This document shows positions 1 to 63,936 of a DNA stretch of 64,000 nt, one piece after another. A program made the position numbers and the translations under genes. Each line of letters starts with the position of its first letter. Positions within the stretch are counted from its first letter, which is position 1. Source of the stretch: Neelides folsomi (lineage: Eukaryota; Arthropoda; Collembola; Neelipleona; Neelidae); NCBI GenBank assembly GCA_034687125.1, contig JAQGBZ010000020.1:124001-188000 (forward strand). The letters are read 5' to 3'. The notes beneath the pieces were generated by a model. It had not been told where the DNA came from. It did no database searches and saw only the letters and a program-made list of their open reading frames with translations.

Positions 1-3000
1 TTAAAATTTTCTCAAATTGATTTATAGTTGATTTTTGCATAGATTTAACGATGTTTAATTTACCTTCGTTTCCCACATGTAACTGATGAAAGCGATAAAT
101 CGAGTGAGGAAAAGCGACGACGTGGAAATGGAAATAGAAAATACGCTTTATAATCCACATGTGTTTTCTCCTCATATAAATGACATGAACAAATGCCCTT
201 TTACGTCAAAGTCCATTTATTTACTTTGCCATGAAACTGAAGACAAATGTCTTGATGTTTTTAACATAAAGAGGTTAAGGAAGAACATGAAAGTTATATC
301 AATATAAAACTAATGTAAAGATCATATTATAAGAGTACATAGTAATGTATGGATGTATGGTATAGCTATAGTCTTTATATTTAAGTATACAGCATGTATT
401 ACTTATATGTAAATATTCAAATTGTATGTTTTTGTAATAAATTTACCATTTGATTGAGTGAGGTTTTAAGTGGATTTGAAAAGGGCGCGGAAAATTTCCA
501 ACTTTGCAAATGTCCCATATTTTTTATCAGGAAGGAGAAGTTTGGGCTTTTAAGGAGATTTACAAGGAGTTTGAGAAGACGAAAACTCAACAAACTTCAT
601 GTTTTTCATCAACTCCAAAATCTCCTTCAAAAATCATTCATTCAAACTTTCGCAAACTTTTACACATTTTTATGCAATTTTTATACAATTTGAATCCATG
701 AATGAAATATCATTTTTAAAATAAAATTCGCACCTTTTGGTTTAACATTCAAACTTCCATTTGCGCACCACTTTCAATTTAAACTTTTTAACTAATTATA
801 TTTCATACATACCATATTTAAATATTTACGTCTAAATTAAATTCCGATTAAAAATATAAGTTTAAATTATATAATTAAAATTTACAAATTTAAATATTAG
901 TACATTACTTAGTATTTTTCCAGTACAAATATAACTTATTATACCAAATAAATAAGTAGATTGAAGATTTCTTTTATTTGATGTGTTTTGTTTTAGGGAT
1001 TGTAAAAGTAAAAGGAAATTAGAAATTCCCCCCTGTTGAGTGTAAAAGAAGGAAATAGATGAAGTTGAATTTGAAAACGACCCTCCCGAACTTCGACCTC
1101 ACGCCGTGTTTTACAGATTAAACACACCTTTAAATGGAAGTTAATTAGTCACGACACATTCAACCTCACCGGGAATCTTTAACAAATGGAACATTTTCCT
1201 TTTCCTAAATTGGCCACTACTTACATTGATCCATATTCCTTATACCTATACTTTTCCTTTCAATACTTTTCATACTTTTCATTTCCTATACTTTTCATAT
1301 TCTTCAAATCCTATACCTTTTATAACTTTTTATTTCTTATACTTTTGTCCGATATATAGATATGTATGTATCTGTATATAAGTACTTTATATTTTTTACT
1401 TTTAGTTTTTCACACATTTAGTTATTTTCTATTTCTTTATAAGAATAATGTTTATAAGAATAATATTTAAAGATCAATATGATTTTTATAATTTCCTATG
1501 TTATATCTTTAAAGTCTGTGAATATCTGTGTGAATAGAATTGGAGTGAATGTATGTTTGAGATAGGGAATATTGTTAATGGAGTTTTGGTGGTGGGGAGA
1601 AAAATGGCGTTCCATTAGAAACCTGGACTTTCCCTTGATTTACGTCCTTCCGGAAATATCCAATATAAATAGCAATATATCTTGGCCATTTGAGGGGCTC
1701 AGGCCGGCGGGAATTTGTGACAAGAAAAATGAGTTACTTCCAACCTTCTTTCCACTCATAAAGAAGCTTTTGATCCCTCACAATTGGAAACACAATTCAA
1801 AAAAATTCTCCTTTTATTTTACGACTTCCAAAATCTTCCCAAAATCCACAATAAATAAAAACATATTTTTACAAATATTTTTTTGCTACAACTTATATGT
1901 GCAACTAAAAAAAACGAAAAATTAGCACACTTATAATTAACACGTTAAAATATCAATAATTATGAAATATAAAATTTATTTATTTGGATTTTTTAATTTT
2001 CATAATTTTGCAAAATTTTGAATATAAAAAAGGTCTTTTTAGATTTTTAAAATTTTGGATGTTTAGATTTTTTGAATTTTGTATTTTTCTCATTATTGAA
2101 TGAATTGAATCTCTTTGGGTGTTTATTGGATGTTTTGTCCCTCCATTTCCATTTCCCTTATTGTGAGCCTGAGGGTTTTCCAAAGGGAGCTCAATGGTTG
2201 GGCGACGTCGTGCTGTGTGAGTTGAAGGGCCCCTTGACTACGCATCGCGTCCCTTTGGCTCCTTCCCTTCATTTATGGAGTCTGAGGGTGAAAAGGACCA
2301 CCGCGGCCCTTGGGCCTAAATTGCGTATAAATCTTGGTGGTAAAGAGGTCTATAGCACCTGCAGCTCCCTTCCCCCATAACTCATAAAGGGACTGGCCCT
2401 TCTCTAATGAAAATTTAAAGAGACATAATTTAGAGAGAATTAAATCTTTTGTACACCTTCACATTTATCTCGCCATTTTCCCCAAAGGCGCGAAGGCTCA
2501 AAAGAAGAGAAATGAGGAACATTAAGGGATTCTAAGGACAATAGAAAATTTATTTCTCATATAAAAGGACAATGATTGGAATTCAATTCCTCACGTTCTT
2601 AAGTTGTTATGGTAAATAACCAAAATGTAAGTTGCTATGGCAAATAACAAAAATGTAACCATGGTGATCAAAGTAAGGTGATCAAACCAAGGCGATCCAA
2701 CCATGGTTAGTGAATGTAAAAAGGCAAAGAATTTGAAAAAATGTAGCGGCAGGTAAACACAACCTTCCCTACCTGTCATTACGATAATTTTATATCTCTA
2801 TCAGAGGTTTCCTTACATGGGAACTTGCTCCGTCTACTCCAAGCATAATTGGCCAAATGGCTTATTATCCAGCAAAACCAACTTACAAAAATTACGCCCT
2901 CATCCACAACACATTACCTTTTTATAACAAATTTACAAATCATGTACCATACACATTTTGTACACAACATATATACATATTTAATACCATACATACATAT

Positions 3001-4429
3001 TGAATAAATATCAATTTCTTAAATAATTCATATAATAAAAATTTTGTTTAGAATCTTTAGAAAAATGGTAGGATCTTATTACAATTTTTAAAATCAAAAT
3101 TTAAATAAATTTAAAAGAAGGCGGGAAACTGTAAAGGCGGGGAATTTAAAAGTGAGTTCAATTTTGATTGTCCTTTTTGTACGGATAATAAATTGAGGTT
3201 CGGATTTCTCCTCCTCGCATTCCCGATCTGATAAGCCTCCTTTTTCCTTGACCCCCTCACTCCCCATAAATTAAAAGGTGGAAGGGAAAGACGAGAACTC
3301 AACATTCACCTAAACCACGTGCAAGACTCTTTCTATTTATCTCGACCATCTTTAAAAAAAACTTCTTGTTCTTAAATACACATTGTTAAATACAAATTGT
3401 GTTACAGTGTTACATTGTTAGATACATTGTTAAATGTATGCAAATTAACTGTAATGCAAGTTGTTTGAAATTTTGATCAGGGATTTAAACTTGAGGAGAC
3501 TTGCGGAGATTGGCGTTTTAAATATCAAGAAAGGAGTTTTGAGGAATGAAACCTGAGTAAGTGGGAAAAGGAGTTTAATATAATTAAAGCAATTATAATT
3601 ATAAGAAAATCCTTCAACTTTCCGCTTTTATCTTCAAGAAAGGAAAACATTCCAAGTGTTGATATTTCGCTCCTTCCTTAATTACCGCAAATCTGATGAG
3701 GGGATCTTAATTAATGGCCATGGTTTAAATTAAACATTTATTAACACTTTCAAAATCTTCTTTTTTCACAATACTTTAAAGTCAAAGATTTAATTTCAAT
3801 TAAATATTAAAATTATAATTTCAATTATTTTTTAATAGTTGACCAGTGTGGAATTTAAGGGCTGTATGGGAATTTAGAAATATAACTGAATGTAGGAATA
3901 TACGGAATGTATGATATAAATATTTGTATTGGAATGTATGTGAAATGTTGATGTTTTGTAAGTGTGTGAATGGAGCAGGTTGATTTTTTCTCCTATTGTG
4001 TTCCAAATAATGGAGGTTCGTTTTTGCTTGAGGAAATAAAAGATGGTTGATTTACGAACCCTGAGAACATTAATATAGGCAATGTAAGATATTCGCATGA
4101 CGGAGCATTGTTGGCACGACAGCCTCCTCGCTGAGACCAATGATTCATTCCCTCCTTTTTAATCCTCCAATGCCCGTTTCGCGCCTCGGACCACTCCGAA
4201 CCGCCAAAGACCCAAGGAGGAAGTCGTAACTCAAAATTCATATACGCTCAAAATAATTGAATCCAGGGAACTCTTAATTAAACTTTTTAAACTCGCCCAG
4301 ACATTCACAACTAAATACTGATACTATTCGCTTCTTATAGTCCAATCATAATTTTAAATCATTTAAAATTTTGTCTATAAAAGGAAATACTTTTAGATGA
4401 ATGTATTGTCATATAGTCAGTTACCTATA

Positions 4430-4499
4430 CAGGGTGTGTCAAAAGTTGCTTTATTTTTATGAGTGTCCATTTAAAAAATGCAACTTTCGAAGCACACTG
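4430..4499. mobile_element. palindromic mariner-type MITE, 70 bp, copy 1
   Basis: The terminal inverted repeats are CAGGGTGTGTCAAAAGTTGC on the left and, read in reverse complement from the right end, CAGTGTGCTTCGAAAGTTGC. TA dinucleotides flank both sides (4428-4429 and 4500-4501), the target duplication of Tc1/mariner elements. The CAGGGTG start is typical of mariner-family ends. The interior is only about 30 bases and cannot encode a transposase, so the element is non-autonomous. The right end (CACACTG) has drifted. Confidence 0.8.
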
Positions 4500-5441: not shown

Positions 5442-5515
5442 TATGGCTGTATTTAGTCTTAATATGGCAGTATTTAGTCATATTTGTAGATGGCAGTATT
5501 TAGACTAAAAGACTA
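5442..5515. repeat. GGCAGTATTTAGTC repeats, 3 copies
   Basis: GGCTGTATTTAGTC, GGCAGTATTTAGTC and GGCAGTATTTAGAC occur within 75 bases. The same core in the opposite orientation (TCTAAATACTGC) recurs three times at 9118-9225. Confidence 0.8.
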
Positions 5516-8030: not shown

Positions 8031-8060
8031 GAATTTGATGAATTTGATGAAATTTGATGA
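8031..8060. repeat. AATTTGATGA short tandem array, 3 copies
   Basis: GAATTTGATG, AATTTGATGA and AATTTGATGA are contiguous. A second array (AATTGTCCCG three times, 8151-8177) lies 90 bases on. Confidence 0.8.
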
Positions 8061-9821: not shown

Positions 9822-11039
9822 CCTTATGGTAAAAATTGAAGTAAACTGACAAATTGTATTCCGATCCAATTGTGCAAAAAACTTCATCCGGATTTTGACT
9901 AATGGAGGGTTTGAAGTTTAAAGGCTTGGAGTTTAAAGGTTTTGACGCATATGGAGAATTTAGGAAAATTTGAATGTTTTGAATAATGGTCAGGGCGGGT
10001 GATGGGAATTAGGTAAATGAGATCTTTTCACCCTTTCCATTTGGATAGGGTTAAATAGGGTAGGATAGGATAGGGTTATAAGAAGGGAGTTGGAGGGAAT
10101 TGGAGGGAGTTGAAGGGAAAAGAAGGGAGGGTTGGGAATTTAAAGGGTTGGGTCACTTCGGAGGTGGCACAGAGGAATTAAAATCCCACATGGTCCGACC
10201 CATGGAAATGAAATTCCGCTTTTTCCCTACTTTGGTGATTGGGCGAGTTGCGGCGGGGATTTTGGACCAACCCACACCATTTTACACGGAGAGCCAAACC
10301 CACCTAACAACAATCACACATTATCTTTCCATAACCAAAAAATTACACGCCTCGGCAGCCGATTACACACAAAATACGATACATTAATATAATACTCCCT
10401 ATACAACCCATCCATATATATTAAATCAAAACCATATTAAAACCTATTTTAGCAATTGGATATGCAAATTCAATATCCAATTTTGTAGAAATTCTGTATG
10501 TATAATCCATATATAAAATCTATACAGAATATAAAATCCACATAGAGGTTTACTATACATATTATGTATTAAATACATATAATTGTATAATAATTTTGTG
10601 TAAAATCCAACTTGAATTTGTAAAAAAATGAAGGCGTTAAAATGAAAATTAAAATTTGGGTGAGGGGAAAAGTCACGTGGTGTTTTTTCCCACAAGTCCG
10701 CCTTCACCTCTTGTGGACGTGATCGTATTTTGAACAAAACTCTCAACCGGATCAAATCAATTAAAACGAACCGAGAAGTCTCATGACCTCAAATAATTAT
10801 TTCGTTCCTGTCGCCATCCAAATAATACAAAACCGATCATTCTGTCTGTCTTAGATCATCAATTTCATATAAAGATTTAATTCTCTTTTACAATACTTTT
10901 TAATAGACTTTAACTAAATAAATACAGTAGTAAATATACCATATATTTTATTTTGCTTACACGGTATAATTCACTCATTATGTATATTCATAAATTCATA
11001 CATAAAATACATATTGGGCAATCTGTTTATAAATTCATT

Positions 11040-11470
11040 AAATATATCGATGTATTGTTTATGCTGAGTTTATCCAAATGGGTTAAATAATTGTTAAATA
11101 ATTGTTTGGTCTGTATGAAATGGATTTCTCCTATTGATGCAAAGATGCAACAACTTTTATCTTCTGGAGCTGACGAAGGTTGAAGATAAGAAAATCTCTT
11201 TGGGGATTGTTTTGAGTTGAAAGGGGTATGTTGGCTGTGTTGGGATTGGTGAGGGTTGTTGGACTCGGAGGATCCTCCAACTTGGCGGCGGCTCGTCCAT
11301 CTCATAAATAAGGATTCATTTGCGCATGGATGTCTCTACACGGCATTAATGTATTTATGCAAGATACATTAACATCAACATTACCATTAGACACACACTA
11401 ACCATCCATTTCCACCTTCAACACAACAACAATCAACCAACTCACCAAACACAAAATCCATACACAACAA
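11040..11470. other. skew module example with extreme A+C-rich arm
   Basis: 11221-11280 holds 25 G and 7 C; 11401-11460 holds no G and 24 C. The switch lies near 11270-11340. Confidence 0.85.
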
Positions 11471-12879
11471 ATACAAAATTACGATTATGACTAGAAATGA
11501 CACAATTTATTTCTTCATTAACTATTTTATAACTTAATTAATTCAGAGGTAGTCGAGGTAATTAAACTAATGAATTTTTGCTATTTATTTAATTAATAAA
11601 AGATAATTTAAATAAATTCATCGGCATTCTTTTAAAAGTTAAATTTAAAATAGGGAGAAATTGAATAAAACCAAAGAATGATCTTAATGTGTGTTATTAA
11701 GTGTTTGTAATAAGACTATCATTATAATGCAATCTTTATTTTAGCTGTAATTTAATGGTCGTTTTAACTGTGATTAAATGATCGTTTTAAATGTAATTAA
11801 ATGATCGTAGTGAGATAAGGAGAGTAAAGAGAGCAATAAGAGTGATGAGAATATTGTGAGTAATTTGTTGATCGTATTTTGCTGGTTATTGAATGTAAGT
11901 AAAGGGTTGTAGTGAAGATGATTCTTCTGGGCGGAGGGATGAATTTGGGTTTGGGTGATGGAGGGGCCATAAACCATTGGTATAAGGATTGGGGTAGTTC
12001 GGGGGACGATGGGCCGGCGTTTCGGGTGGGGCGCGAGTGTGGGCAAAATCCTATAAGTGCTTATTTCCAGCCACTATCAGCCCTTAACATTAAACAGTCT
12101 TGGGGAATTGACAAAGCTGTTAGGAGCCAATAGCTCACTATTCTCATCCCTGCCAAAGGAACCGGAGCTCCTGCAACCGAACAGGTACAATTCATACAAA
12201 CCATGCTTTCACCCCCAAACCCCGGCCCTTGCATAATAATCCTAATAAAATCATCATCATCATAATCATAAAGGCCTTGCATATTTACAACAATCCCCAA
12301 TTAGATAACTGCAATTAAATAATTGCAATTAAAGATGGAGTTCATAATTAAGGAAGTTTTTCAGCAGTTTCATATGAAAATTTTAAATACTAGAAGGAGT
12401 ACCGATTTGATATTTAAAAGTGAAAGTTTTATTAATTTTAACTTTTATTAAAATTTTATACGGCTTTTATTTTTAATCCAAATTTTATTGTCATTAATTA
12501 AATTTTTAATCAAATAAACCCCGCTCCGATGTTGGGATTTTACCTTTAAAAGAAAAAAGAGTTTTTATAAAAGGAAATAATGAATTTTTCAATTTGAATT
12601 AGTTAGGGTAAACGATCAAAAATTTTGTTTTTAATGTTTTATCATTGAAAATTTTGAAATTGAATTATAGTTGATCTCTAGCTCTATCTGTATCAATTGT
12701 ATACAATTGAGCTTTTACTAACTTTTAACTTTTATTAATTGTGATTCTCATATTGGAGTTATAAAGAGAGATTTAATAGGAAAAATTTGGAGGAAGCGAA
12801 AAGATCAGAAAAATTAATTATTTGGTAAATAAATAATCCAATTGGGTTTTTGACATTGGGGAACTTTTCATATTTTGGT

Positions 12880-13320
12880 CCAAATGGGAGAATTTAAGTA
12901 TTTGTGATCATTTGTGAGTATTTGCGATCATATGTGAGGATTTGTTGTGTATTTGTTGTGTATTTGTGAGTATTTGGGTGTATTGTTCTTATGTTGTGGA
13001 TTGCGGTGGGGGAATTTGTTGGTTGGAGGTGAAGGAAAGTCGGGAGTTGACGTTTATCGTTTGAAGCCTCTGGGTCCTGAGTTATGTTCACATAACACCG
13101 TCACTTTTTCATTTCTTCGCCTTCTCAAATTCACAGAGTGAGGGAACTCCGGAAAATAACGCTAATAGCACGGGACATTTATTGTCAATTCCTCATCTAC
13201 ACCCATCGACTCCTTCCAACACCCAAAACTTCCAAGTTCAAAACAAAATTCGCATTTACATACAAAATCCATTCACAATTTTCACAATATTTTCACCACT
13301 TTAATTCAATTCCAATTTAA
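12880..13320. other. skew module example: G+T-rich arm then A+C-rich arm
   Basis: I counted 61 G and 13 C in 12901-13080, then 3 G and 35 C in 13201-13320. T also dominates A on the left. The left arm repeats TATTTGTGAG / TTTGTTGTG units. No gene explains the asymmetry. Confidence 0.85.
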
Positions 13321-14158
13321 TCATTTAAATCACATTTAAGATTCTCTTTAATCATAAAATCATATTTAAGATTCTAAACCTTTAATTTTAAAATCATAAT
13401 TATTAATTGATTATTATGGTTAAAATTCATTTATTTATGTATTAGATAACATAGATAGCATTTATTTAAATGTGAGTTAAACGGAATCAGACCTACAAGT
13501 ATTTATTTAAAATTGAACGTAAAAGAAAGAAAATCTCAAAATTCCCCAACGGCGTCAAACCGAGAAAGTCGGAGGGGATTTGAGAAAGGATTTGAATGAA
13601 TGCGGATTTGAAGCCTTTTGGTGTCTTTTGGGGTATTTGGAGTATTTTTGAGTGTTTTGAGTATTTGTGAGTATTTGTAAGTGTTGAATGAATTTTTATG
13701 AATGAAAAAGTGTTATAATAGTGGAGGGGTTTTATTGAGTTTCCGTTCCAGGGTTCCTAATAGGGAGTTGAGGTGGGCCAGAAGTGGAAGGACCGCACAT
13801 AAAATAATTTTTTACGGCCCCATAAAACTGATACTTTGCGTAAACGTTGGAAGCTAAGTGCATATTTACAACCCGGCGAGTGCTCAACCTCGGCCACACA
13901 CAACACACACAACCTTACACTCAAAACTTCCTTTAATTATCCAATAAAATAATCGTTAAAAGACCATTAAAACCAGACTTAACTTACAGTCAAATAACAA
14001 ATAACTTTTCTTATCAATTCATTCACTTATCTTCACCAAAACTCTTTTTTTATCTTAAATCTAAAAATTCAATCTTTTACTTTTACAAACTTTTCCTACA
14101 TTTTTATTTAATTTATGTATTTTCCAAATAATTCAATTTTATATAAAATATTCATATA

Positions 14159-14228
14159 CAGGGTGAGCATAAATTTACGCAACATTGTCTATAATTCTAA
14201 AATATTGCGTAAATTAAATCCCATCCTG
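14159..14228. mobile_element. palindromic mariner-type MITE, 70 bp, copy 2
   Basis: The left end CAGGGTGAGCATAAATTTAC continues into GCAA; the right end in reverse complement reads CAGGATGGGATTTAATTTAC, also followed by GCAA. TA duplications flank it at 14157-14158 and 14229-14230. The inner stem TTTACGCAA / TTGCGTAAA is perfectly complementary around a loop of about 20 bases. It has the same length class and ends as the copies at 4430 and 58819 but a different stem, so it derives from a related, not identical, mariner. Confidence 0.82.
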
Positions 14229-14269
14229 TACAGATTTTAATACAAAGTTAAAACTGCATTAATATTTAA

Positions 14270-14720
14270 AGTTTGTGTTTTGAATACAGTCGAGTTTATC
14301 TGAGTTGCGTGAATGTATTTGAGTTTGTCTTAGGGTTTGTTTTTTAAAGATTTCCCAATTTGCGTTGAGTGTTGATAAGGGTGTTTTGAAACGGGCGACC
14401 TGTGGCGAGGTCGTGTAGTGAAAGTGAGGATTAGCGGAAGGTCAGGGCCGGGCGTTGTGGGCTTCTCCAACTCAATGGGGTTATTTTGGGGAAATTAATG
14501 AGAGGGAGTTGACATAAACGTTTGAGTGAAACGACCGTTCTCAGACTCCGGAGGGTTCAAACGGCACAATGGCCGTCTAAATGGTCCATTCCCACTTTAT
14601 ATCGCACCAATATCAAAACTCAGTTTCAACAACCAAAATGAAACTGTTGCTCCTACTCATAAAACCTGTACTTATTTCGCAAAAGTTTACTCCAATTCGC
14701 TATTATTAATTCCTTAATTC
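14270..14720. other. skew module example: G-rich arm then C-rich arm
   Basis: I counted 79 G and 27 C in 14281-14520, then 11 G and 33 C in 14581-14700. The switch is near 14520-14580. It begins about 40 bases after the MITE at 14159-14228, but the two appear unrelated. Confidence 0.8.
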
Positions 14721-17499
14721 GCGAATTCAAATATAAAATTTAAATTACGCAAAAGTTAAATATCTTAATATCTTATTAAATATTAAGCACAAATACAAAT
14801 ATAAGTATTAAATATGTATAGAGTGAGGTTGTAAATATGAGTTTAAATATACTGTATGTAAAAATTCTTATATGAACTTCTCATACCAAGTTAGGTATTT
14901 GATAATATTTCTTATTTACGCATTGTGAGATTTATAACTTTGAGAGGAAGTTCCTTTGGATCTCCAGACGAAGATTTGTTTTGATTAAAAGTCTAATTAA
15001 AAACGTTGAAGTTTGTGGAAGAAGGTGAGAGTTTATCAATCATCACTTCCACCTTCAGAATCTAAAAATCATGTTTGAATCTTCTCGAATTCGCAGAAGA
15101 TCAAACATCCAGATTTCTCCTTTTTTCTCTCAGACGGCGAGGAAAAGCCGAGGAGTTTCAAATAAACTTTTAACTTCATTCCACAACACTTCTATTGATA
15201 AGAATTCTTCTGATACTTAATAATATAACTGCAATGACCTAACTATAATAACCTAACCTAACATAATATAAATAAGTTTATATATAATAATATAAACTTT
15301 GTAAATAACATAAACTTGTATGTAATATGTCTATACAACTATACAGATATATTATATTATATAATACACGGTTTTTGTATTTGATATATTTTATTTAGTT
15401 TGTGTTATGCGTTTTGAATCTTCTTGTCTGTTTGTGGTGGGGATTTGTATCTGAATCTTGATATGAATTGGTTTGGGCAGACCTTGAGTCTCGCCATGCT
15501 TCTCAAACGTGCATTTACATTCTTTTTTATATAAATGAATTTCGTGATGGCGGTCGGCGTTTTCACCCGCGGACAGAAGCCAAAAGCTGAAAATGAACGA
15601 TTCCTTTCACACTTTCAAATCTCACCGCCTTCTTTACAAATTCAAACATTCCAATTTTAAATCAAATCCACCGAGCCAAAATATTTAAATAACAAAGTTA
15701 AATTGGGAATTTTCAATTATTTAATCTAATTGGATTTTTAATGCAGTTTATCTTTAACTGCTTTATAATAAACTTTATAGTAAAAATATCCATATACATA
15801 CAATATAGTACATAATATAAGTACATACAGTTAATGTATTATTTATACTTTGTTTATAAAATTCATAGGGCTCAATAGTGTTTTTATAGTATTACTTAAA
15901 TTATATTTTGGTTAAATGAAAAAAAAGAATAACAAGTTTAATTGAAGATAATGCGATATTTAAATTGGGGGATTATTTTTTGTAATGTTCAGATATTCGT
16001 ACTTGGATATATTTAAGTAGAGATATATTTTGCATGTACCATATACATAAATATTGTATATGATACTTATGGGTATTTTATATTATTAAGTATTTCAGAT
16101 ATGCTTTTTGACACATTTTGTGAATGATGTTTCTCAATTTGTGTTAGGGGTTAAAGAGAGATATCTCCATATTGATGGTTTTTTATTCTTTTTACGACTC
16201 AATTGCTCGATCAAGAAGGGAAGTTTTGTCTGAATGAGAATATTTTCAATTTCTCGCATGGTTGACAGAAAATCATGGAAATTCACCCTTTTTTTCTTTA
16301 TCGGAGCTTCCCCATCCAAAGGGAGGTTTTGTCTGCGAGTTGTGGATTTTTGGATTTTTGTGATTCGTCTTCCAATTTCCTAAGCTCCTTTCTCATAAAT
16401 CCTCCTCCCTGTCTCCCTGAGCCAAAATCAATAGGAGGGACAGATCATTGGGGAGAAAAGGTGAGCAGAAATGAAGCACAAATAAATCTACCAATTCCAA
16501 TTCATCCAATTCCCATACACTTACAACATTACACTTTTCCTCTATATCTCACACGTATTTCCCCAATTTCACTCCTTGAAGGAATCTTGTGTTTTAAGTC
16601 TATCTGTCTTCTATTGAATCTTCTACTTTACTTCTCCTTGAGTCTTCTTCTATTTGAGTCTTTGAGTCTTGTGCTTGAACTCTACTTGAATGTTCCATGT
16701 AAAGAAATAGGAAATGGTGAAGTGAATCGATGAATGTCTCGCTTGAGGAAATCCCTCAATTGAGACTCGCCTTTTTCCCCAATAAATTACAAGCCGTGGG
16801 GTTCTATCAAACGGAGTATAAGGGGAAAGAAATATGGTGACAGTCTTTCCCTCACCAACATCTACTCCATTACTCCCTTATACCATATACATATACAATA
16901 TATATTCACCATAGATTCACAATATAGTATACTCCATATTTATTCTCAATATTTATTCTCTATGTAATATGTGAAATAGCTGAAATATAATAAATATGGC
17001 ACATATTTTATATGGTATTTTATATTATTATATCATTCACTTCATTCTTATTATTTTGAACAATTTCATGGAAAAGTATTAAAGTGCTATGGATAAATAC
17101 GGAGAGTTTCTTTCCATCATTTCACATCCTTTTCGCTCCACTTACAACTTCACTTGGCTGAAGAAAAAGACTGCTATGACTACATTCATCATCCCACGCG
17201 CTATATTTCAGAAAACCCCCATTTTGCATATAAAATATGTTCAAGTGTTAAAATACACTTAAACTTATAGAGCTAATGTTAAGCTTTATAAAATTTCTTA
17301 TACTAAAAATTATGCTCTTATGTATAAACTTATAGCTGTAGACATAAACTTTATAAAATTTTCTTATAAAGCTAATGTTAAACTTTATAAGAATTTTGAT
17401 TCCCCCAAAGGGGCAAAAAGCCGCCGCCGGGTTTTTCCTTTTTTCTCCTCTTTGGGAGGATTTCCTTGGGCGTGTGCTAAAGACCGTGGAAGTGTATTG

Positions 17500-41461: not shown

Positions 41462-43089
41462 ATGGTTACGCATCTCTCATCCTCACTCTCCTCCACATCC
41501 TCACATTTGGGAATGTCGAGTCCAATTATCGGGGAGAAGCTCACTCACTTCCCCAGCTCCGCTCACTCAGCTCCCTATAAACAATTTTAATTAAATTCAA
41601 AATCGGTGTTGGGGAGGAACAACGGGGAAAGTGAAGGACTAAATTTCAATCATATTAGACGCGCTTTTTGTCCTTCCCCATTTGCATTTCCCATTAATAT
41701 TCCCCATCGGCCCTACACGCATCATTCTCACATTTAAATCTCTTTCCACTCACAATTTTATAAAAAAGGTTTTAAATAAAATATCAACCTTAATTTAAAT
41801 GCTACATGGTTCTCATTGGTTAAACTTAATTAATTCTTAGAGCTTATTTATTAAATTGTATTAAACAATGTTAAACTGCATTTAACTAAAGTTAAGAAGA
41901 AGTTAAGTTAACATTAACCTGACCTGACCTAAGTTTGCAATAAAAATAAATAGGATATAAATTTCTCAATAAGTGGTAAGATAAAAATTTATATATTTTC
42001 CTAACTGTGGTTATGAAATTGTAAGGAGGTTCTTGAGAAGGGTGTTAAAGGGCGTGGTTGGTTTCCTATTGATCCTCATAGGATTTGTAGGATTGGGAAG
42101 TCTCTGGCTGTCAATTGGAGAAATTGTAAATGTGAGCCATGCATTATGTATTATGAGAAAACGGCTTTAATTCTCCCCCTCTTCATCAGTTCCTTTGTAA
42201 AAAGGGAGAGAGATTGGATTAGGTCCAAGGGAGGGAAATCCAAATCTTCTCCACTTCCCGTCGTCGTGGGAGATTCAAAAGCAACTCAAAGACTCAAACT
42301 CAAAGAGAACTCAAAGGGAAGACCCGAAGACTCTCAAAGTGTGGGAAGGTGGAAATGTCCTTTTGCCAGCTTGAGACTTCAATTCACATTTTTCGGAGCA
42401 CCAGCAGGCGAATGAATAAAAGAACCCTCTTTTTACAACCCACAAAACTAAACAAAATTCCTCACCTTTAAAAACAAATTCATTCTCAAATTTTCCCAAA
42501 TTCTCAAATACAAATTTTAAAACCGGCATTTTTCTAGACGTATTTTTCTTGTGTATATTTACCGTATTTATTTTTTATTGACTTCTGGTCCTATACGAAT
42601 CTAAAATATAAGTACTTAAATAATTAATAATTTAAAATATAATAAAAATATAATTTGGTGCAATTAGCAATTTTCCAAAGTACATTTTTATTTTACATTT
42701 TTGTAATTGATCAATTGAGCTGTATGGGTTTAAATTTATTTTTAATAATAGGTAAATGTGTATTTGAATAAGAGTATGGGAGTTGTATGGAACTTAGATT
42801 TGAATTGTATGGAAGTTGTATGGGAGTTATATGAGCAGAGTTTTTGATTTTTGTATTGATGTATTCAATGGATGATCTCACATTTGCGTAACCTTTTAGG
42901 TCCGGGTTTTTGTAAAAAGAAGGAAGGGGAATTGTTGTGTTAGTCCTTTAGGTCTCTGAGGGGACAGCGGAAAAAAGAGTGAGTAAGCGGATGAGGGAGG
43001 AAATCGGGAGATTGAGGAAAATGGGGGCTTCATACACACACTTTATTTATCCCCGTCCCCTCCTTTGTGCCAACAACCATGCAATGGAT

Positions 43090-43260
43090 ATCAATACAAT
43101 ATCAATGGAATATCATAGGAATATTAGGACTATTATAGGAATATAAGGACCATCAAAAATATCATAGGAATATTAGGAGTATGAGAAGAATATAGGAATT
43201 TTGTATAGATATGATAGGAATAGTGTATAGATATGAATTTTGTATGGACGTGGTATATGT
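43090..43260. repeat. degenerate ATAGGAATATYAGGA array
   Basis: Units such as CATAGGAATATTAGGA, TATAGGAATATAAGGA and GATATGATAGGAATA repeat over about 170 bases. The array leads into the G-rich arm that switches near 43370. Confidence 0.7.
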
Positions 43261-44268: not shown

Positions 44269-45980
44269 ATTTAGTATAATTTGGAATTTAGAAATAGTTT
44301 GAGAACTATTGAGAATAGTAAACAGTTTAAACAGGGTGGGCGCGTGAGTTTAAATATTCAAGTCTTGGTTGATATTTTATAGTCGTCGATTTAATTTATA
44401 GATCTATTCATTTGTGTATTGACTCTGTCTGTCTGGAAGAACCAACACAAAGTGTGGGGAATATTTATGGGCCCGGGAATATTTCAATTTATCGATTGGG
44501 GAATGAATAGGAATTAGCTGGCCAATATTAATATATTAGGAATCATTGTTCCAAGTTTGATCCCAACAATGGGCGGAATTTAGCAGGGTGGGAAGGGGAA
44601 TATTGAGGAAGTGGGCGGAATTTGATTCAAAGTGAAGAGAGGTAATTGTGAATTTATCGATATAGTTCCCCTTATATCGGCTATTCCGGATTCCATCGAG
44701 GTCTTTGAAGCATTCGGAGTCATAAATTAAAGGAGTGGCGCGGAGAAAGGCCCGACATTTCCGAATTAATTCCGCATCGGAGAGCATTAATCGAAACTCT
44801 CTCGCCTTTATGCTCCCAAACCTAACTCATATGTGGATGAGAAAAAATTGGAAATTGAAACGGGAATGAATTTAAACATTCAAAACACAAAAAATTCTTA
44901 TTTTCCCGCTAAATCCAAAAATTAACAATTCGAAATTATTTTCATTTTTACATTCATTTTCAATTTCTCCATATTGGAATCATATAAATACATAATATAT
45001 AGATTTTGTATAGTACATATCTGTATATCATATATTTGTATATGTACACATATTCAACTTACATCTAATATATGTGAATTCGTTTAGATATTTGGGAATT
45101 TCGGATTTATGAATTATGGTCTGAGATTTGGATTGAAGATATTTTGAATGTGTTTATTAAATATCGTTTCCGATAAGGCCGTGAATCCTTCCATGAGAAA
45201 TTCCTGATGAAACAGACGGCGGACAATTTTGAATGTTCTTAATGTCCTCGTTAATTCTCCACCTGATAAGATTAAATTATAATTACTTTCTATTAATTAA
45301 CACTTAATCTCTCATTCAGTTAACAAACAATCATGCGTATAAAATAACAAACTTCAAAATAATTAATAATACAAGAATGAAGCTTATTTAGCGCATCCTA
45401 TTAAATAAATTTCGTTTAATCTTAATAAGGCTTTTTAAGTATTATTTAAATGGCGTATTTAATTTAAATATTATTGATAACTTTTAAAGAATATTTATTT
45501 CCTATTTGCTTCAATTATTAATTTATTACTTTCTCCTTTATTACATAAACCCTCATTCATTCACCATTTGACTATTAATACAATTTGTAGTACAATTTGA
45601 ATGAAGTTAACGTAGGGCGTATTTACACAAAATGTTACGGTTCATTTTGAATGCATTAAATTTTCCTATTTCGGTCAGGTTAAAAAGAAACTCTGGAAAA
45701 AAGTTGTAAAATGTAAGAAGAATGAAGGGACAAACGCGACGCACAATTTTTCAACTCCCCAACCTTTTCAAGAACGGAAATAAATTTGCCGTTTATTAAT
45801 AAATCCCCGTAGATCTTTCGAATAGTCATGTGGTGGGGAAATTAAGGGAGCTTACAAAAGGGGTGAATCCCCTTACAAATCCCCTTCATTTTTTAACTTT
45901 ACTTAACTACTTTAACTACTTACTTAAACATTTTTAAATTCAAATACTCGATTTGTCCATTTTTGTGAATTTTTAATGTT

Positions 45981-52770: not shown

Positions 52771-54399
52771 AGGGCCGTGTGTTTGAAGTGTGGGTTTCCC
52801 TTTTGAACCTTCGAACTCATCGGGTGAGTCGAAGTTTATGAAATCCTCCGTCCCTTCTTTCCCTTCACAGAGTTGATCCAATGCTGGAAAGAGGGCAATT
52901 CAACCTTCATTTTCGGAAGGAACCAAAATCACCCTTCGATCTCAATTCACGAACCTTCACACAAAACTCATCACAAAATCTCATTCAATTTTTCGAATTC
53001 TCACTCATTTACTCTTTAAACTTTATCTTAAAAACGAAACTTACCAATGCAATTAAACGTCGAATTTGAAACTTGGCGCTTGAACTTTTAACTTTATGTC
53101 TCACTGATTATTTAAAATACTTCTTCTTTAATTCTCCCAATAACTTCAGTTAGGAAGAATTAAAACAAACTTTTTAAGAATATTTCTAAAACTTTTAAAA
53201 TTATATTTTAATTACAATTACTTAAATCTTATTAAAGAATTTAATCAAAAATTTAAATATGAATTTAAGAGAACTTTTAATTTCCAATTAAAAATGAATT
53301 TATCGGATTAGTCTTAATTATTTTATCTCAAAATTTATATTTCCTATTAATTGTGTATAAAAATAATTAAAAATTCGAGAATAAAAAGAAATTTTGAACG
53401 TCTTTCTTGTCGTCTTGTTTCTTTTGTACTGAGGAGTTTGGAAGGAAAAATGAAAAAAAGCGATCGTTTATTGCTTCAACGGTTGTTTTACGACTTTGAA
53501 ATTGGCTAGAAAACAAAGTCCTTGTTTTCTTCTCTTTCTATGTCACTAGCCATTCATTTTTATTTTATTGGGGTGGAGGTGAAAAAGTGTTTTGTTTTTT
53601 TTCGCCCGTCCAAAACACCGCCTTGAACTTGGGGAGTAAAAAGGGCCATTAAGAAACAATAAAAGAGCCATAAAAGATAGGTGGGAGATTTAAAACACAC
53701 GGCTCAGCTCCCCTCAACTAACTCCATAATAAACGATGACATAACGACCCTCTTCAAATAATACTTATGCTTAAATTATGAGCCTTAAAACATTTAACAC
53801 TTTAAACATATCCCAAATGCTTATAACCAAACACCTAAGCTTTAAACTCACCCATTGAAGACTTAGCCATTAAAGACATGGATGAGAAAGAAGCAAACAT
53901 GTATAAAAGATATACCCAATTTACTTCTGTTTAATTGTCCTTCCCAATGACCTCTTTCTTCAAAATACTTTTTCCTCCTTGCAAATTACATAACAATAAA
54001 TGGATGAATAAAACAATAAATTGAATAAATTTAGTTAAATGTTTAAATTAGTTAAGTTTGTTTAAATTGTTTAAAGGATGTTTAAAGATTTTTTATAAAG
54101 TTAAAGCGTTTAAATAGTGTTTTTGAAAAAAAGTGTTTGTTAAAGACAAAGGGAATGGTATTTGAATTATTTGGATAAATGGTAAAATGGAAAGAATGCG
54201 GATTTAAAAATCGTTTAGTATTTAAATGAAAGAACGTGACATTTCCGTCGTTTTCCTCCTCTGCATTTATTCTCAAATTCTGGAAAGGGAATTAAGAGGA
54301 TTTCCCTTTGAGAAATCTCAAACTGAAGAATTGTATGGGATATATTAATGTATAAGCGATTTGTGGAAGATGTTCAAGAGATCCATGAGATGTAATAAG

Positions 54400-54490
54400 A
54401 TGTATAGGATAATTTATAAGATGTACGGAGATGTATGGAAATGTATAGGATTTGTATGGAGATGTATGAAAATGTATAGGATGTGTTTTT
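54400..54490. repeat. degenerate GGAGATGTATGGAAATGTAT array
   Basis: AAGATGTATAGGAT, GGAGATGTATGG, AAATGTATAGGAT and GGAGATGTATG units alternate. The array forms part of the G+T-rich arm that switches near 54500. Confidence 0.72.
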
Positions 54491-56888: not shown

Positions 56889-57579
56889 ATGACCTCGTAC
56901 TTCTCCAACTCCTACATTCCCGACCTCCGGAACGGCGGGACTCCGGACCATTATTCGTCATGCACAACTCCCGTCAACGGGGCCACGCCGGACCCTTCAT
57001 GCGACCCGCGGAATACGATCCATCACTATGGGAACCACCAAGGTGGGCAGTTGCCCTATCCCCGGTTCCCGCCCTACGATCGGCTTGACATTCGGGCAGT
57101 TGGCCCCAACGGGCCGGGGAATTACTACCAAGGAGGTCAAATCCTCGAGAACCAATATCGCCCGCCCTCGCCGCCCCCTTCGGTCAATCCAGGGGTCATG
57201 GGAGGTCATCTGGGCCAGTCACAGCAGTATTCCTCATGCAAGATGCAACAACAGCAAGTTCAGCCGAACGTCCCGCCCGTTCTCGGCCCGCCGCTCTCGC
57301 CCGACCCGTCGCAGACCCACGTGGTGAACAACCACATTGTGGGGCCGGGGGTCAACGGGAACCATCAGGGGCATATGGGGATGTACGGGAACGGGATGGG
57401 CGGGGGGCCGCCGCACCCGCACCAGCAAGTTCATGTAAATGTTCAGCAACATCAGCAAACTCATCCCGCCGCCCAACATCCCCATCAGGCCCAGAATCCT
57501 CACCAAAGTCCGCAGCAACAGAATAGTCCTGCTGCCGCGCTACCTAGTCCGCTATACCCTTGGATGAGGAGTCAATTCG
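56889..57579 (+). CDS. Antp: Antennapedia Hox protein, main coding exon (N-terminus to YPWM)
   Basis: This exon encodes residues 1-230 and the first base of codon 231 of the Hox transcription factor Antennapedia, a nuclear DNA-binding protein that sets segment identity. What is seen: the N-terminal block MTSYFSNSY (1-9) followed by IPDLRNGG (10-17), the Antp-specific PYPRFPPYDR (56-65), YSSCKMQ (114-120, Drosophila has YASCKLQ), HMGMY (162-166), a His/Gln/Pro-rich low-complexity stretch (about 172-213), and LYPWMRSQF (222-230) containing the hexapeptide that contacts Extradenticle/Pbx cofactors. The ATG at 56889 is chosen because an in-frame TGA lies at 56805-56807, no other in-frame ATG lies between, -3 is G, and MTSYF is the family start. 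A TTG at 56859 in the same frame is not a credible start. The exon ends at a GT donor (57580, GTAAGA) in phase 1. It is roughly 60-70% GC in the lines I counted, far above its surroundings. Ubx, Scr and ftz are excluded by the N-terminal and PYPRFPPYDR blocks. Confidence 0.96.
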
Positions 57580-58818
57580 GTAAGATAATTAATTTATTCT
57601 CAATTAGTTCATCTCAATTAAATTTAGATTCATATCATTATATATACAGTAGGAATGTATACAAATTCACCTTTGTAATATTTGCATAAATGTATGTGGA
57701 TTGGGATATTTTGGCATCATTGTTGTTTGGAGCACTTGTTGAATGAAGAATAATATATGGGAATTGCGGGTCTCGTTCCTGGCTTATGTTCTCACTTCAA
57801 CTTGCCCAAGAGGCCATAAAAGTTGTCGTAATCTTCTATTTTATTAGCCCATTCCAAATGCGCCCAAAAACCCTCAACCAAGTTCAAGGAAAATTCAATT
57901 CATTCCCTTTTTCCTCCACAATTCCTCCTTTATAGAAATTAACTTTTATTTTAACCATTATTTTAAGTATAATTAAAATAATTATATTATCATAATATTA
58001 TTTAAATTGGAGAATTGTTGAATTTAATTGTTTTGAATTAAGCGCCAAATTGTAATTTTTAATTTAATTGAGTTTTGAATTTAGCGAATGTAATTTTTTT
58101 TATTTTCCGTGTCGGAGGTGCTGAATTGTGTAATTGAATTTGATGAGATTTGAAATCGGCGTTTATGGTTTTGTAAAGGGGCCATTTATTTCAATTGGTT
58201 GTATTAAAAGGTAGTGAATAATAATTGGGGTGGATATCTTGTGAATTTATCTCTTTGACTTTCATTGGGGTTGTGAATGGTTTGTAGCAATAACCATAAC
58301 TATAAAACTTCATCCCCCATTTAGACTTCCATTATGTTCTTTCTACATCATTATTATCCCATGATCATTATCCCATTCACCATCAAGCACACGCAGAATA
58401 AGGAGAATATTACATTCATAATCTATACGCATTTCATTACACTTTTACATTTACTCATTTCAATGTTAACATTCGGCCGTTTCGGTCCAACGCGCGTTGG
58501 TTGATAGAACAAACCGATTAGGTCAATTTCCCTTTGTTTACATCTTCATTACAACTATCTTTACGACCCATCCGTTTTTATGACCAAACATTCAAACCTA
58601 CACCAACATTTTTATTTGCATCTATGCCACTGACGCTTCATTTAAATTTTAAAAATATGTTAAATGCATCAAAAAACATTAAATATATTACTAAATTAAT
58701 AATTAATAAAATATCCTAATTTATTATAATTATTAAATGTATTAAATGGCATTTTAATTAATTACAATTTACGTATAATTTAAGTACCTAAAATATAAAA
58801 ATGATTAGATTAAATGTA

Positions 58819-58892
58819 CAGGGTGGGCCTTAAGTTGCTTTATTTTATACTATTGCTTATTTAAAAAAGAAAGAAACTACTGGCCCACCCTG
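58819..58892. mobile_element. palindromic mariner-type MITE, 74 bp, copy 3, in the Antp intron
   Basis: The ends are perfect over the first 11 bases (CAGGGTGGGCC versus GGCCCACCCTG), and the similarity continues inward (TTAAGTTGCTT versus AGTAGTTTCTT in reverse complement). TA duplications lie at 58817-58818 and 58893-58894. It sits inside the Antp intron and is the best preserved terminal pair of the three, suggesting a fairly recent insertion. It has no coding capacity. Confidence 0.85.
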
Positions 58893-61800
58893 TACGAATA
58901 TAATGTAAAATGGAGAATTTTGTTTAAATTGTTGAATTGAGTGGAAAGTTTTATGGCTTTGTTATTTGGAAAAGACAAAGAGCTGAGTTTTTGAATTGAA
59001 GTTGTTTGCGTAATAAATCCCTGGTAGTTTTAGGTGAGTTGTAACTTCACCGACCTTCAGGTTCCAAATGACTCGACCTTCACCCTTACCATTTTAACAT
59101 GACTTAAGATTATAGGATTTGAACATTTTGAACATAGGAGTTAAATACTATAGGAGTTTAAGATAGGAGTTGAGTATATTTCAATAGGAGTTGAACCAAG
59201 GGGTTAAGGTTGAGTTATAATGAGTTTAAATGTTAAAGGAAAGGGTTAAAGAACAAGGGAAGGTGTCCGTCGGTCAAAGTAATAAAATCCCTTTTATTGG
59301 TCCTTCAACCCTTCTCGATTGACTCGTCATTCGACATTTGTCAATCCACGTTTGTTGGTCTCCCAAATCCTTAAGCCATTTGTATATTTCTCAATTGACG
59401 TCTTCTTCACTTTCACTCTCCCAGTCAGAATTTGAAGTGGGAAGAAACAACTTGAGTTTTTCTCTCTTCGCATTTAACATTTAAATTCATTAAATCAAAT
59501 CCTTCAAATATTTAACGTCATATTTCTGTTAATATATATTTTCTGTTCATCTTTTCTGTTCATTTTTTATTTACTATAAACTCCGTTTCTCTGTTTTGTG
59601 TTTTAAAAGTGTTTTGGATAGCTTTGGATATTTTTTGGATATGTTTTGAATCAGATTTGGATTTGTTTTATTAGAAGGATTGGGATTTGTTTTGTGTTTG
59701 GGAGGAGTTTTGTTTTTGTGATTTGTCATCTGGGGAACTTCAGGTTTGATTTTGTGTGATTGGATTGGGAGTTTTGGAGTTTGGATGTTTTCTGGTTTTC
59801 CTCTTTTGTTGACGCGGATCAATCAAGAAGAAGGAAATGTTTCGTGTTGTGGAAACTCTTCAACTCGAGTTTGTGAGTTTGGCCCAAGTTGGGTGATTTA
59901 GTGTGGGAACTGGTGGGGATGTCTGTTGGGGAAGGATCTCAATTTCGATAGGCTGGAAGATCTCCACGTGTTCGGAAACCCATCTTGCATTCTTTTAATC
60001 CGAAATGAAAGTCGGAGGAGTTTCCTCGTGACTTTCCTCCTCAGCGACTTGAGAGGAGGCGGAAACCCAAAAAACCCCTCAAGATGAATTATGAACATTC
60101 TTTTTACACCCACGGATTTATTGCCCCATTTGATCAACAACAATGGAAAAGAAATGATGAATAAGTCAACCGAGATATTTACAATAACATTACTCAATTT
60201 AACACGTCGTGGACATTTTTTTAAAAAATTCATTATTTTAAAATTCAATTTTAAAAGATTCTCAGATTTCTCGTGGTGTTTAATTATAATTAAAATGACA
60301 TTTTTTCTAATTTTTTTTATGGAAAATCATAAGATGAATTTCTACTATAAAACAACCCCAATTAAACGACATTAAAAATGATTATGAAATTGGTGAGTTT
60401 TGGTTAAATAGTGTTTAAATATTTTAATAGTGATTAAATATTTTAATTGATGGTTAAATTTTTAATATGATTAAAGCTGTATTTAGGAATTTTGGATAAT
60501 TTAATGAACCATAGGATTTTGATGATTGGATTAAAAAACAGCTGGTTTGAGCATATGAGCAAACAGAAGATAATTGTGTGTGTAAATTAATTCAATTTGC
60601 GGGATTAGCAAAAGTGTCAACGGAGTTATGAAAGAGAAGTGGAGGAATTTATTGGGAATTATTTAATCCTTGTTTGCTCAGCTTTTTGAATTTATCCCAC
60701 AGGAACCGCCGTCATATAACTTTAATAATCCTTATCAAATAAATATATTACATTTTGTATACCAATGTAAGTAATGTATAGTATATCCAACTTTCAAAAT
60801 CCCCACATTCCAATACAATTAAATATTCGTATTCGCTCTATAAAATAAACGGTAATTTATCACGGGTTCTAAAACATCCAATATTCAAATGGAACAATTT
60901 TGAGTGTTTAGATCTAATGGTGAAGAATTTGCACAAATAATGTCCAAATGGCAAAGTGGTCGTAATTGAAAAGATGAAAATGATAAATGTGAATATTTAT
61001 GTATTGGGGGAAACCAACCAGCCGGTCCATTTTTATTAATTTAATCATTTTATTTTCAACAAACTCATTTAAAGTAGATTCGTTCCATTTCTTGTTTTGC
61101 AATAAAAAATTAAATTTTCTACTACTATACAATTAAATTTCGCTTTTTAAACTATAGGATTTTATTAAATTAGTTCCTTCGACCAAATACAAAAAGGGAT
61201 GAAATAACTAACTGTTTTATTTCGTATTTATCAATTTATGAATTTGATGTGTGTTGAAAAATCTAAAGCAAATAAATTAATACATAGAATAGAAATATGG
61301 TGAAAGAGGAATACTAGTAGACTAAAAGGGTAATAGACTCGTAACATAGTGAGTTTTTTGGTTGTGTTTCTTTTGTTTGGGTCTTTTCATCTTCGTATCT
61401 AATCGTCGTATTATGTCATTTGGAGTGAGTGATAAAAACAAGCGGGTTTCTCTCAGAAAGACACGGAGGAAATGAATAGGAAAATGAATAGAACCAGACG
61501 GGTGTTAATTTATCATTTTGTTTCACCTGGCCCATCTGAGCTTCCTTCTTTGTTCCATTGAAAAATGGTTTATTTGTGTGAGGAGTTTTGGGGGAAAAAT
61601 TTCCCTCCCAGAGATCGCTTTGTCTCTTTCCAAAACCTCCAGCCAGAACAAACCGATAATTAACTTTTATTTGATCAGCTCTCTTTACAAACATTTGGTA
61701 CAATTACAAACCTTTTTATTAAATGAGGAAACGGACATTTTTTCATTTTAGAAACAATGTTTAATTAAACTTTTATTAACATACAAAATTGAACCTAATT

Positions 61801-62693
61801 AAATAATATAGCAACGGAAATGGAAATGGAAACTTGTAGACAAAATGCCGTTTTGTAACTATGGTAACTTTTAGCACCACTGCAACCGATTCCATGGTTA
61901 CTTTTTCAATTAAAATATTTAATGTTTCTTAAAGTTAAGTTAACGCGTTTTAATAAATAAACCAATAAAGCTAATTATAGTTAAATAATTTATAATAAAA
62001 TGGATCTTTATTAAAAAATTGTTTGGAGTTGAATTTGAAAAATGGGATTTTAAATGAAAAATGTGCGAATGAATTAATTTTAGCTTTGGCAATATTTTTA
62101 AATTAGGGAATATTAAGGGAAAGAGCTATTTGATTAATGTGATTTAAGCTAATAAAAAGAATTCATAATTCTTCCACAATTTTCATCTTCTTCTTTCTTC
62201 TTCGTCTTTGGTTTAGAATATAAGAAGTTGAGAAATTTTATAAAGTGTATGGAAGTGTTGTAAATGAGTATTAATGGGAATGTTGGGTGAGTTAATAAAG
62301 ATCTTCCTGAGATGAATAATTGGATGGAGTTTGAAAAGCTTCCACCGACGACGTTCTCATTTACTTTTTCTTTTTCTCCTTGGAGGAACGTCGGAGTGAG
62401 AAAATCCATCCGCACGCTATGGGAGACAAAAAAGGTCTCATGTGATCTTCCCCGAACTCCTTCCCTTTGTTCGGACAGAAAAAAAAGCGACACGAATTTC
62501 CTTATCTGCTCATCTCCAAGGTGGTTGCTAGGGAGATCATAAATCACACCTGTCCTTCCCTCTAACTGATGTGTCCAATTATGAAAGAAACCTCGCTTGA
62601 TTGAAGGTGGAAGCTCAAATTCAATCGCGCCAAATTCGTCCCGCTCTCACTAAAATAATTTTTCTTATCTACCTTATGCTCATCTTTAAATTT

Positions 62694-62765
62694 TAACCAT
62701 AGTTAGCCAGTTAACCATTAACCATAGTTAACCATTAACCTTGGTTAACAAGTTAACCATAGTTT
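62694..62765. repeat. TTAACCATAGTTAACC-rich stretch
   Basis: TTAACCATAGTTAACCATTA-type units recur with both TTAACC and GGTTAA present, so the stretch is both tandem and self-complementary. It lies in the Antp intron. Confidence 0.75.
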
Positions 62766-63936
62766 AAAAATTCTTTAAAGTTGAGTAATAAGAAATAAGT
62801 TTAAGGTATAGACAGTCTATGATTTACTAAATTGTTGCCTGGGTGATGTAAATGAGATTTCTTCAAAGGGAGCTTGAGGGTTTTTGGGTCCGACAAAGCG
62901 GATTTGACGTTGAGGATTCTTTGAGTGTCCGTTGGGTGATTTATGTCTTCAAAGTCCCCTGTCACTCATTCGGTTGGATTTCATTGGTGGGCCTCTCACT
63001 CAAACACTACAAATTCCTTAAGCCTATAATCACAATACCTGATGCTCTTCACTCAAACCCAAAAAACAATTACAATTTAGATTTAAACTACAACCAAAAA
63101 TACAATACAAAAATACAATCTGTAATTACAATTATTCTCTTATTATTATAAGAGATAGATTCAATATATTACATATAAATATATAAGTGTAAATCCGTTC
63201 ATTATTTTTAATTAATTTTAAATTATTAATTTCATTCTAATACTTTAAATACAGATTATATTCAATTATCCACTTTAATTACAAATAATATAATACAAAT
63301 TAACTAATTGTAAATAAACTGATATTATTCTTACTGTCAATAATAACGGCTGGTATTTGTTAATTACATTTTTAATTTTAAATTTCATGGGTTTAGTAGT
63401 AAGACTAAAAGCGCTGATTGTGTTGATTGTTGAGGATTTTGTGGATGAATTTGAAGGGCGCTCCCCTCTGAGCTGTTCATTTTGTGAAGGGATGAAAAAT
63501 GTATTTCGGGTGGACTTTGAGTCTTATAGTTGAAACGAGGTTTCGATCAATCCGTCCCAGCTTGATTCTCCGATTGAATTTCGGTGGCCATTCGTCTCTG
63601 TCACGTCAAAGGCATTCTTCTCCCACTCCCCGATTCCTCCCACATACAATCCATCACTCAACCCATTGTCCCATCAAGCACCCAAAAGAAACGCATTCAA
63701 ACCCCTTAATTACTAGGACTAGAAAAATATATAGACATAGGCGTACAAATACATACTATACAAATCCATACAAACACCATAAGTATATACAGATACTAAA
63801 AAATATACTGTATGTATAGAATATTATTCTATAGGTTCATTTAGTATTTTAAATTTTACTAAGTCTGAGGAGCTTAAAATGAGTTTAATTTAAAATAAAT
63901 GTAATTATATTTAATTTTGAATGTTATTTTAATTAG

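Follow-up and report, generated by a model that had tools for sequence, protein, structure and literature searches.

The window analysed here is the whole stretch of 64,000 nucleotides at bases 124001–188000 of contig JAQGBZ010000020.1 (C20) of Neelides folsomi, whose assembly comprises 75.1 Mb in 840 contigs. Judging by conceptual translations, it lies within the Hox complex. The window is tiled with polar modules, in which an A+T-rich spacer is followed by a G+T-rich arm, a G+C-rich core, an A+C-rich arm and the next spacer. Units of this kind, each of about 600 bp, account for most of the sequence among and within the Hox genes. These skew modules and their fixed order are real and strong. 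In the sampled stretches the pattern is apparently confined to the Hox domain, and it may be a mutational scar around regulatory sites. The results concern one species, with the genome sampled in stretches and sequence data as the sole material.

Order and anatomy of the skew modules

Keto skew (G+T−A−C) and G+C content were measured in 50-bp blocks. Keto skew in the window has a variance of 132, whereas 100 dinucleotide shuffles never exceed 69.6, and it is negatively autocorrelated at 300 bp (−0.275) but positively at 650 bp (+0.17), with a shuffle standard deviation of 0.028 and a largest shuffle value of 0.093. The excess over dinucleotide shuffles had been set beforehand as a check on the original prediction, an earlier reading of the same letters, and it bears that prediction out. 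Purine skew shows hardly any oscillation in the window. The antisymmetric correlation of keto skew with G+C reaches +0.41 at 150 bp (60 shuffles: standard deviation 0.021, largest 0.075). The order statistic used below, antisymmetry, is the antisymmetric part of this correlation, the value of which is unchanged under reverse complementation.

The order was counted over nine stretches of C20, including the window, with a total length of 119 kb (the Hox set; L019–L026 are the eight outside the window). Peaks less than 500 bp from a stretch end were excluded. The G+T-rich side lies to the left and the A+C-rich side to the right of 143 of 157 G+C peaks, the order being reversed at 14, and the matching opposite change is found at 154 of 159 A+T troughs, with 5 lacking it. 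In the window itself, where peaks closer than 250 bp to the ends were excluded, the expected order is found at 82 of 87 cores and at 85 of 87 spacers. These counts confirm the claim that the G+T-rich arm almost always comes first, and the G+C-rich core with an A+T-rich spacer between blocks is likewise borne out. Equal numbers of the two orders, or a skew no stronger than in shuffled sequence, had been named as evidence against the claim; given the order counts and the excess over shuffles, neither was found. A four-state hidden Markov model, started from guessed arm compositions and uniform transitions, learned a one-way cycle. Its expected counts are 230 for spacer to G-rich arm versus 1 for spacer to A+C-rich arm, and 228 for A+C-rich arm to spacer versus 0.6 for G-rich arm to spacer, which corresponds to about 230 turns per 119 kb, or one per ~520 bp. 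The median peak spacing is 637 bp in strongly skewed and 612 bp in weakly skewed DNA, and since these values are nearly equal, peak spacing alone is no sign of periodicity.

The hand counts behind the original prediction are correct to within one base. A recount gave the same values of 61 G and 13 C at 12901–13080, 3 G and 35 C at 13201–13320, 25 G and 7 C at 11221–11280, and 0 G and 24 C at 11401–11460. At 14281–14520 the 79 G were found again, with 28 C in place of the 27 reported earlier, and the 11 G and 33 C at 14581–14700 were unchanged.

The average of 157 cores reveals the anatomy of a module. G is the first to rise, reaching 0.26 at −38 bp, and C follows with 0.27 at +62 bp. Across most of the left arm C remains near the spacer level (0.08–0.1), as does G in the right arm; T exceeds A to the left of the core and A exceeds T to the right. 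The G/C component of the skew is stronger than the T/A component, GC skew being about 0.4 at 110–160 bp from the core centre on both sides. The centre itself is balanced, with G 0.27 and C 0.23 followed by C 0.26 and G 0.22. The strand-balanced, G+C-rich core spans about 150–200 bp and each arm about 200–250 bp, with one core per ~500–650 bp. Arm skew increases with core G+C (rho 0.19, p 0.0003; 351 half-blocks, 313 of them with the expected sign) and does not follow spacer composition in the same half-blocks (rho −0.04, p 0.42). Whole-core skew is also related to core G+C, both in 164 Hox cores (rho 0.28, p 0.0003) and in 237 cores elsewhere (rho 0.19, p 0.003). The features of the window are as follows.

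1–63936: tiled modules in the order given above, with 88 cores and the same number of spacers called
10936–11602: module with core at 11267, from spacer and core calls (third example of the original prediction)
11602–12452: module with core at 12009, from spacer and core calls
12452–13391: module with core at 13054, from spacer and core calls (first example)
13391–14100: module with core at 13842, from spacer and core calls
14100–14785: module with core at 14441, from spacer and core calls (second example)
17449, 38434, 45810, 49214 and 59324: cores of reversed polarity, three of the five nearly flat
56889–57580, forward strand: putative Antp coding exon with YPWM hexapeptide, ends approximate, read by eye
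63942–64000, forward strand: start of the putative Antp homeodomain exon, which extends past the window end (contig 187942–188112)

Distribution along C20 and in the rest of the genome

Pfam homeodomain matches were found on C20 at 97.2, 187.9, 238.5, 253.9, 299.9, 339.1, 360.8 and 382.0 kb, all on the forward strand; the match at 360.8 kb resumes at 361.2 kb. Read by eye, the eight translations are those of genes we take to be Ubx, Antp, ftz, Scr, Dfd, zen/Hox3, pb and lab. By this assignment, C20 holds the Hox complex in standard order, from Ubx to labial. A Pfam scan of the Antp 5′ exon matched 0 families.

Antisymmetry is 0.29–0.44 in all nine C20 stretches, which are spread over 1–385 kb, and 0.38 in the window. 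The pattern is already present at the contig start. Thirteen pieces of the window give values of 0.18–0.50, the lowest (0.18) belonging to the 5-kb piece with the Antp exon. The predicted presence of the pattern inside the Antp intron holds, as it continues downstream of the coding exon with an antisymmetry of 0.36 at 60001–64000. Past labial, the values are −0.01 (391–395 kb), 0.14 (405–409 kb), −0.12 (419–423 kb) and 0.01 (428–433 kb), with a mean of 0.005, so that the strong sampled signal stops 3–9 kb past the labial homeodomain exon. The earlier statement that the modules could not be tied to genes is thereby overturned at the scale of the domain.

Seventeen arbitrary 10-kb stretches from other contigs have a mean antisymmetry of 0.062 (range −0.06 to 0.16). 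This mean differs from zero (p 0.0009), and a weak version of the pattern is therefore general. The difference between the eight Hox-domain stretches, taken without the window, and these 17 is significant (p 1.9e-6). Eight 5-kb homeobox flanks average 0.14, which does not differ significantly from the arbitrary stretches (p 0.12); three of them are strong (0.22, 0.27 and 0.28) and five weak (−0.04 to 0.13). Two further stretches, on contigs C19 and C21, gave 0.16 and 0.24, the latter a moderately strong value. The claim that the modules run throughout the noncoding DNA stands within the window, but elsewhere in the genome most of the sampled noncoding DNA shows the pattern weakly. Three stretches with low open-frame coverage (L007, L010 and L016) show an antisymmetry of 0.02–0.05, and gene density is therefore not the whole cause.

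Homeodomain matches were also found on two other contigs. At C35:220791–303305, at least six homeodomain places lie within ~83 kb on both strands, and the skew there is weak (0.13 in L030 and 0.07 in L031); this group is possibly a second homeobox cluster. At C13:278472–282011 there are four homeodomain matches, three of them within one open frame of 1984 codons, which presumably encodes a large multi-homeodomain protein of the type we take to be ZFHX. Forkhead and nuclear-receptor positions were likewise located in the assembly.

Cores, spacers and tandem arrays

Words were counted in the central 200 bp of the 164 Hox cores against local dinucleotide shuffles. The comparison set consisted of the 237 cores from 22 other stretches, L029 being excluded because it shows the pattern; the eight homeobox flanks were kept outside this set for words and core skew and tallied separately for tandem arrays. 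The word TTTATG/CATAAA, which we take to be of Caudal/Abd-B type, occurs 67 times in Hox cores versus 24.7 expected (2.7-fold, z 8.5). It is near expectation in the arms of the same modules and shows no excess in the comparison cores (41 versus 40 expected). GCCAT/ATGGC, presumably a Pho-like word, is raised 1.55-fold in Hox cores (66 versus 42.6) and occurs 84 times versus 72 expected in the others. GAGAG is raised neither in Hox cores (0.94-fold) nor in other cores.

Short tandem arrays number 160 in the 119 kb of Hox stretches (1.34/kb), 47 in 192 kb elsewhere (0.24/kb) and 7 in the 40 kb of homeobox flanks (0.17/kb); local shuffles yielded 9, 9 and 1, respectively. The arrays of the Hox stretches are short and decayed, about five times denser than elsewhere, and located mainly in spacers and outer arms and rarely in cores. 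They cover ~1% of core centres versus ~20% of spacer centres. Because of the words and the array distribution, the cores resemble constrained elements and the spacers freely duplicating filler. The cores look regulatory and seem to behave like constrained elements. No specific word was found in the arms beyond their composition, except for the tandem-repeat-like TGTATGG/TATAGGA. These minisatellite-like words are raised in the arms and recur in separate arrays (3869–3919, 42774–43236 and 54388–54484).

Several simpler sources of the skew were tried and rejected. Masking of tandem repeats leaves an antisymmetry of 0.32–0.37 in the four of the nine stretches tested. CpG decay does not account for the pattern, the observed/expected CpG ratio being 0.77–0.95 in all four window compartments. 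Dispersed repeats or a second haplotype were not seen either: window positions 11000–15000 match only themselves and one 85-bp stretch at 76%, and L007:1–4000 matches itself alone. Pure G/T or A/C runs are too rare to serve as a genome-wide marker and lack the order (within 350 bp, G/T then A/C in 4 cases versus 3 opposite). A search against Rfam gave 0 RNA matches at the gathering threshold.

Positions 58817–58894 hold a short element whose ends are inverted, TACAGGGTGGGC...GCCCACCCTGTA. Its end word is also found at 14157–14168 and, with one mismatch, at 44330, and L032:2070–2080 is a further location; 4 matches were counted versus 0.11 expected. The element looks like a small inverted-repeat transposon.

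Origin of the pattern and comparison with known systems

The explanation we favour, though with somewhat less than even confidence, is that the complex is packed with regulatory cores, each of which centres a strand-asymmetric footprint produced via single-strand exposure at the core. The Hox complex would then contain regulatory-element-like cores at a density of about one per 500–650 bp, each at the centre of a strand-asymmetric mutational footprint. C and A would be replaced by T and G on the top strand to the left of a core and on the bottom strand to its right, leaving a G+T-rich left arm and an A+C-rich right arm of ~200–250 bp each. The spacers between footprints would remain A+T-rich and be filled with short tandem duplications. 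The likeliest process would be a recurrent exposure of single strands beside germline DNA breaks at open cores: 5′-to-3′ resection would leave 3′ single strands with the matching sidedness, mutations would accumulate on the exposed strands, and the G+C-richness of the core may come from biased repair. The peak in the Hox complex might reflect a high density of long-lived cores or chromatin of Polycomb type. We infer that the cores function as regulatory elements, that mutation and not selection is the cause, and that breaks are involved. A domain-bound germline process, tied to chromatin state or regulatory cores and recording each core as a skew change, is possible but rather unlikely in our estimation; several hundred polar modules would in that case, by extrapolation, extend over at least 385 kb and end at the edge of the complex.

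Substitutions within tandem arrays offer a coarse view and hint that a strand-asymmetric substitution process may still be acting. When 158 arrays were oriented by their 60-bp flanks, C>T exceeded G>A and A>G exceeded T>C, with an odds ratio (OR) of 1.81 and 0 of 2000 permutations as extreme. An orientation by the array's own skew was dropped as circular. According to Hinch et al. 2023 (PMC7615360), the changes flanking human meiotic breaks are C>N and A>N when read on the forward strand, with their complements on the reverse strand; the single strand to the left of the break is the forward one, and the central 100 bp have no asymmetry. By our own reading, this would amount to a gain of G+T on the left, as here. 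Human start sites are hotspots of germline mutation with links to divergent transcription and to mitotic, not meiotic, breaks (PMC12658150), and for this reason breaks and transcription may act together.

A number of observations weigh against regulatory cores with break-borne footprints. We know of no precedent for breaks this dense, at more than 100 sites per 100 kb, with a maximum in a Hox complex. The bias of array substitutions depends on how the arrays are oriented, giving OR 1.61 (p 0.01) with 100-bp flanks in 141 arrays, OR 1.39 (p 0.27) with 200-bp flanks in 66 arrays and OR 1.19 (p 0.32) with the orientation by own consensus in 167 arrays. Five of the eight homeobox flanks are weak, and the stretch with an antisymmetry of 0.24 (L029, C21:200001–205000) lies on a contig with no homeodomain match. 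As for the words, TAATTA is raised 1.7-fold in Hox and non-Hox cores alike, and of five control words one, TTAATG/CATTAA, also exceeds expectation in Hox cores (z 3.8, 1.8-fold). The choice of TTTATG followed a word scan of these very cores, where several hexamers were raised and CATAAA (44 versus 20.4 by order-2 expectation) did not rank first. The skew of cores with and without TTTATG is 0.288 versus 0.268 (p 0.43), with no difference for GCCAT either (p 0.67); at the level of single cores, motif and skew are therefore unlinked. Finally, the human break study gives a resection of 1–2 kb per side, longer than the arms here, and some mutation peaks 700–800 bp out, beyond these arms (PMC7615360).

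Divergent transcription outward from the cores is an unlikely alternative, though it too fits the G/C component of the skew. The cores would be enhancers or promoters firing both ways in germ cells, with a C-biased sense strand that leaves G to the left and C to the right of each core. At invertebrate start sites the sense strand is C-biased, and fungal coding strands are A-biased as well (PMC3315797); the strand leading away from the cores, as presumed starts, is C-biased here (143 of 157). The human start-site hotspots tied to divergent transcription (PMC12658150) point the same way. A small sample of 28 putative introns, defined as gaps between open frames, is slightly C-biased in the sense strand (GC skew −0.033), but it is also T-biased (+0.039), whereas under an invertebrate-type start skew the A-rich right arm would need an A-bias; moreover, the skew of these introns is about one tenth of the arm skew.

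Selection on the arms as a regulatory grammar, e.g., for nucleosome placement or head-to-head low-specificity sites around a core, is improbable. The core words and the low tandem-repeat content of the cores point to constraint, and a domain-bound distribution fits function; the arms, however, have no word of their own save TGTATGG/TATAGGA, and the weak version seen in the 17 arbitrary stretches (mean 0.06, p 0.0009) speaks against such a role. Divergent transcription from the A+T-rich spacers, an idea put forward with the original prediction, is quite improbable; in this case the displaced sense strand would turn G+T-rich. Its sign fits the mammalian type of skew, with the change present at 154 of 159 spacers, but skew strength tracks core G+C and not spacer composition, the spacers are the most tandem-repeat-rich part of the modules, and the sampled sense strands are C-biased, not G-biased.

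Replication starts in the spacers are highly improbable. The sign would suit them, since leading strands tend to be rich in G and T, but no replicon size known to us comes near a spacing as short as ~0.6 kb, and confinement to one domain is left unexplained. Decayed long inverted repeats or fold-back elements, another earlier suggestion, are largely refuted and equally improbable. Each block is compositionally its own reverse complement, and its arms align very slightly better with each other than with arms of other blocks (22.2 versus 21.4, t 2.75), but only 2 of 164 blocks pass the 99th percentile of other-block scores, with 1.6 expected, and the 25 longest inverted repeats listed mostly link distant places. 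Fold-back of transcripts driven by the skew is rejected too. Real 400-bp sequences around 87 window cores fold slightly better than both kinds of mononucleotide shuffles (mean z −0.86 and −0.74), and the skew is not the source of this gain, since skew-keeping shuffles fold no better than skew-destroying ones (+0.12).

If skew reversals mark regulatory cores, Hox elements could be mapped from one genome, with no need of relatives or chromatin data. The repeat-rich spacers beside nearly repeat-free cores would show a Hox complex renewing its filler while keeping its elements. If the process is domain-bound, the whole Hox complex would carry a distinct sequence style, and the domain and its elements would be legible in the raw sequence of a single species. 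The apparent confinement to the Hox domain makes it testable whether germline chromatin state steers strand-specific mutation at a sub-kilobase scale. Strand asymmetry at hotspots and start sites is already known; no description of tiled skew in a Hox complex, ending near its edge, was found among the matches listed from the open-licence literature, which are part of the hits.

Mammalian CpG-island promoters have a G+C-rich centre at which skew jumps from C to G, and they form R-loops. The modules share the G+C-rich centre with a skew change, but here the skew falls from G to C (143 of 157), which is the opposite. Insect Hox regulatory regions and Polycomb response elements are dense across the Hox complex, as the cores are here, and the raised TTTATG and GCCAT words may be a further likeness, one control word also being raised and GAGAG not. 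To our knowledge, no polar G+T/A+C flank signature surrounds such elements. In mouse, nucleotide skew reportedly switches polarity at hotspot centres, a finding said to go back to Smagulova et al. in 2011. At human meiotic hotspots (PMC7615360), the asymmetry flips at a balanced centre, as in the modules, and by our reading the left strand loses C and A and the right one G and T, again as here. The modules differ from these hotspots in having arms of 200–250 bp and units every 500–650 bp, strongest in the Hox complex, and in that breaks are presumed. The start skew of invertebrates and fungi (McLean and Tirosh 2011, PMC3315797) shares the C-biased outward strand, with an A-bias in fungi as well; that skew is tied to genes, whereas the modules described here are intergenic and intronic.

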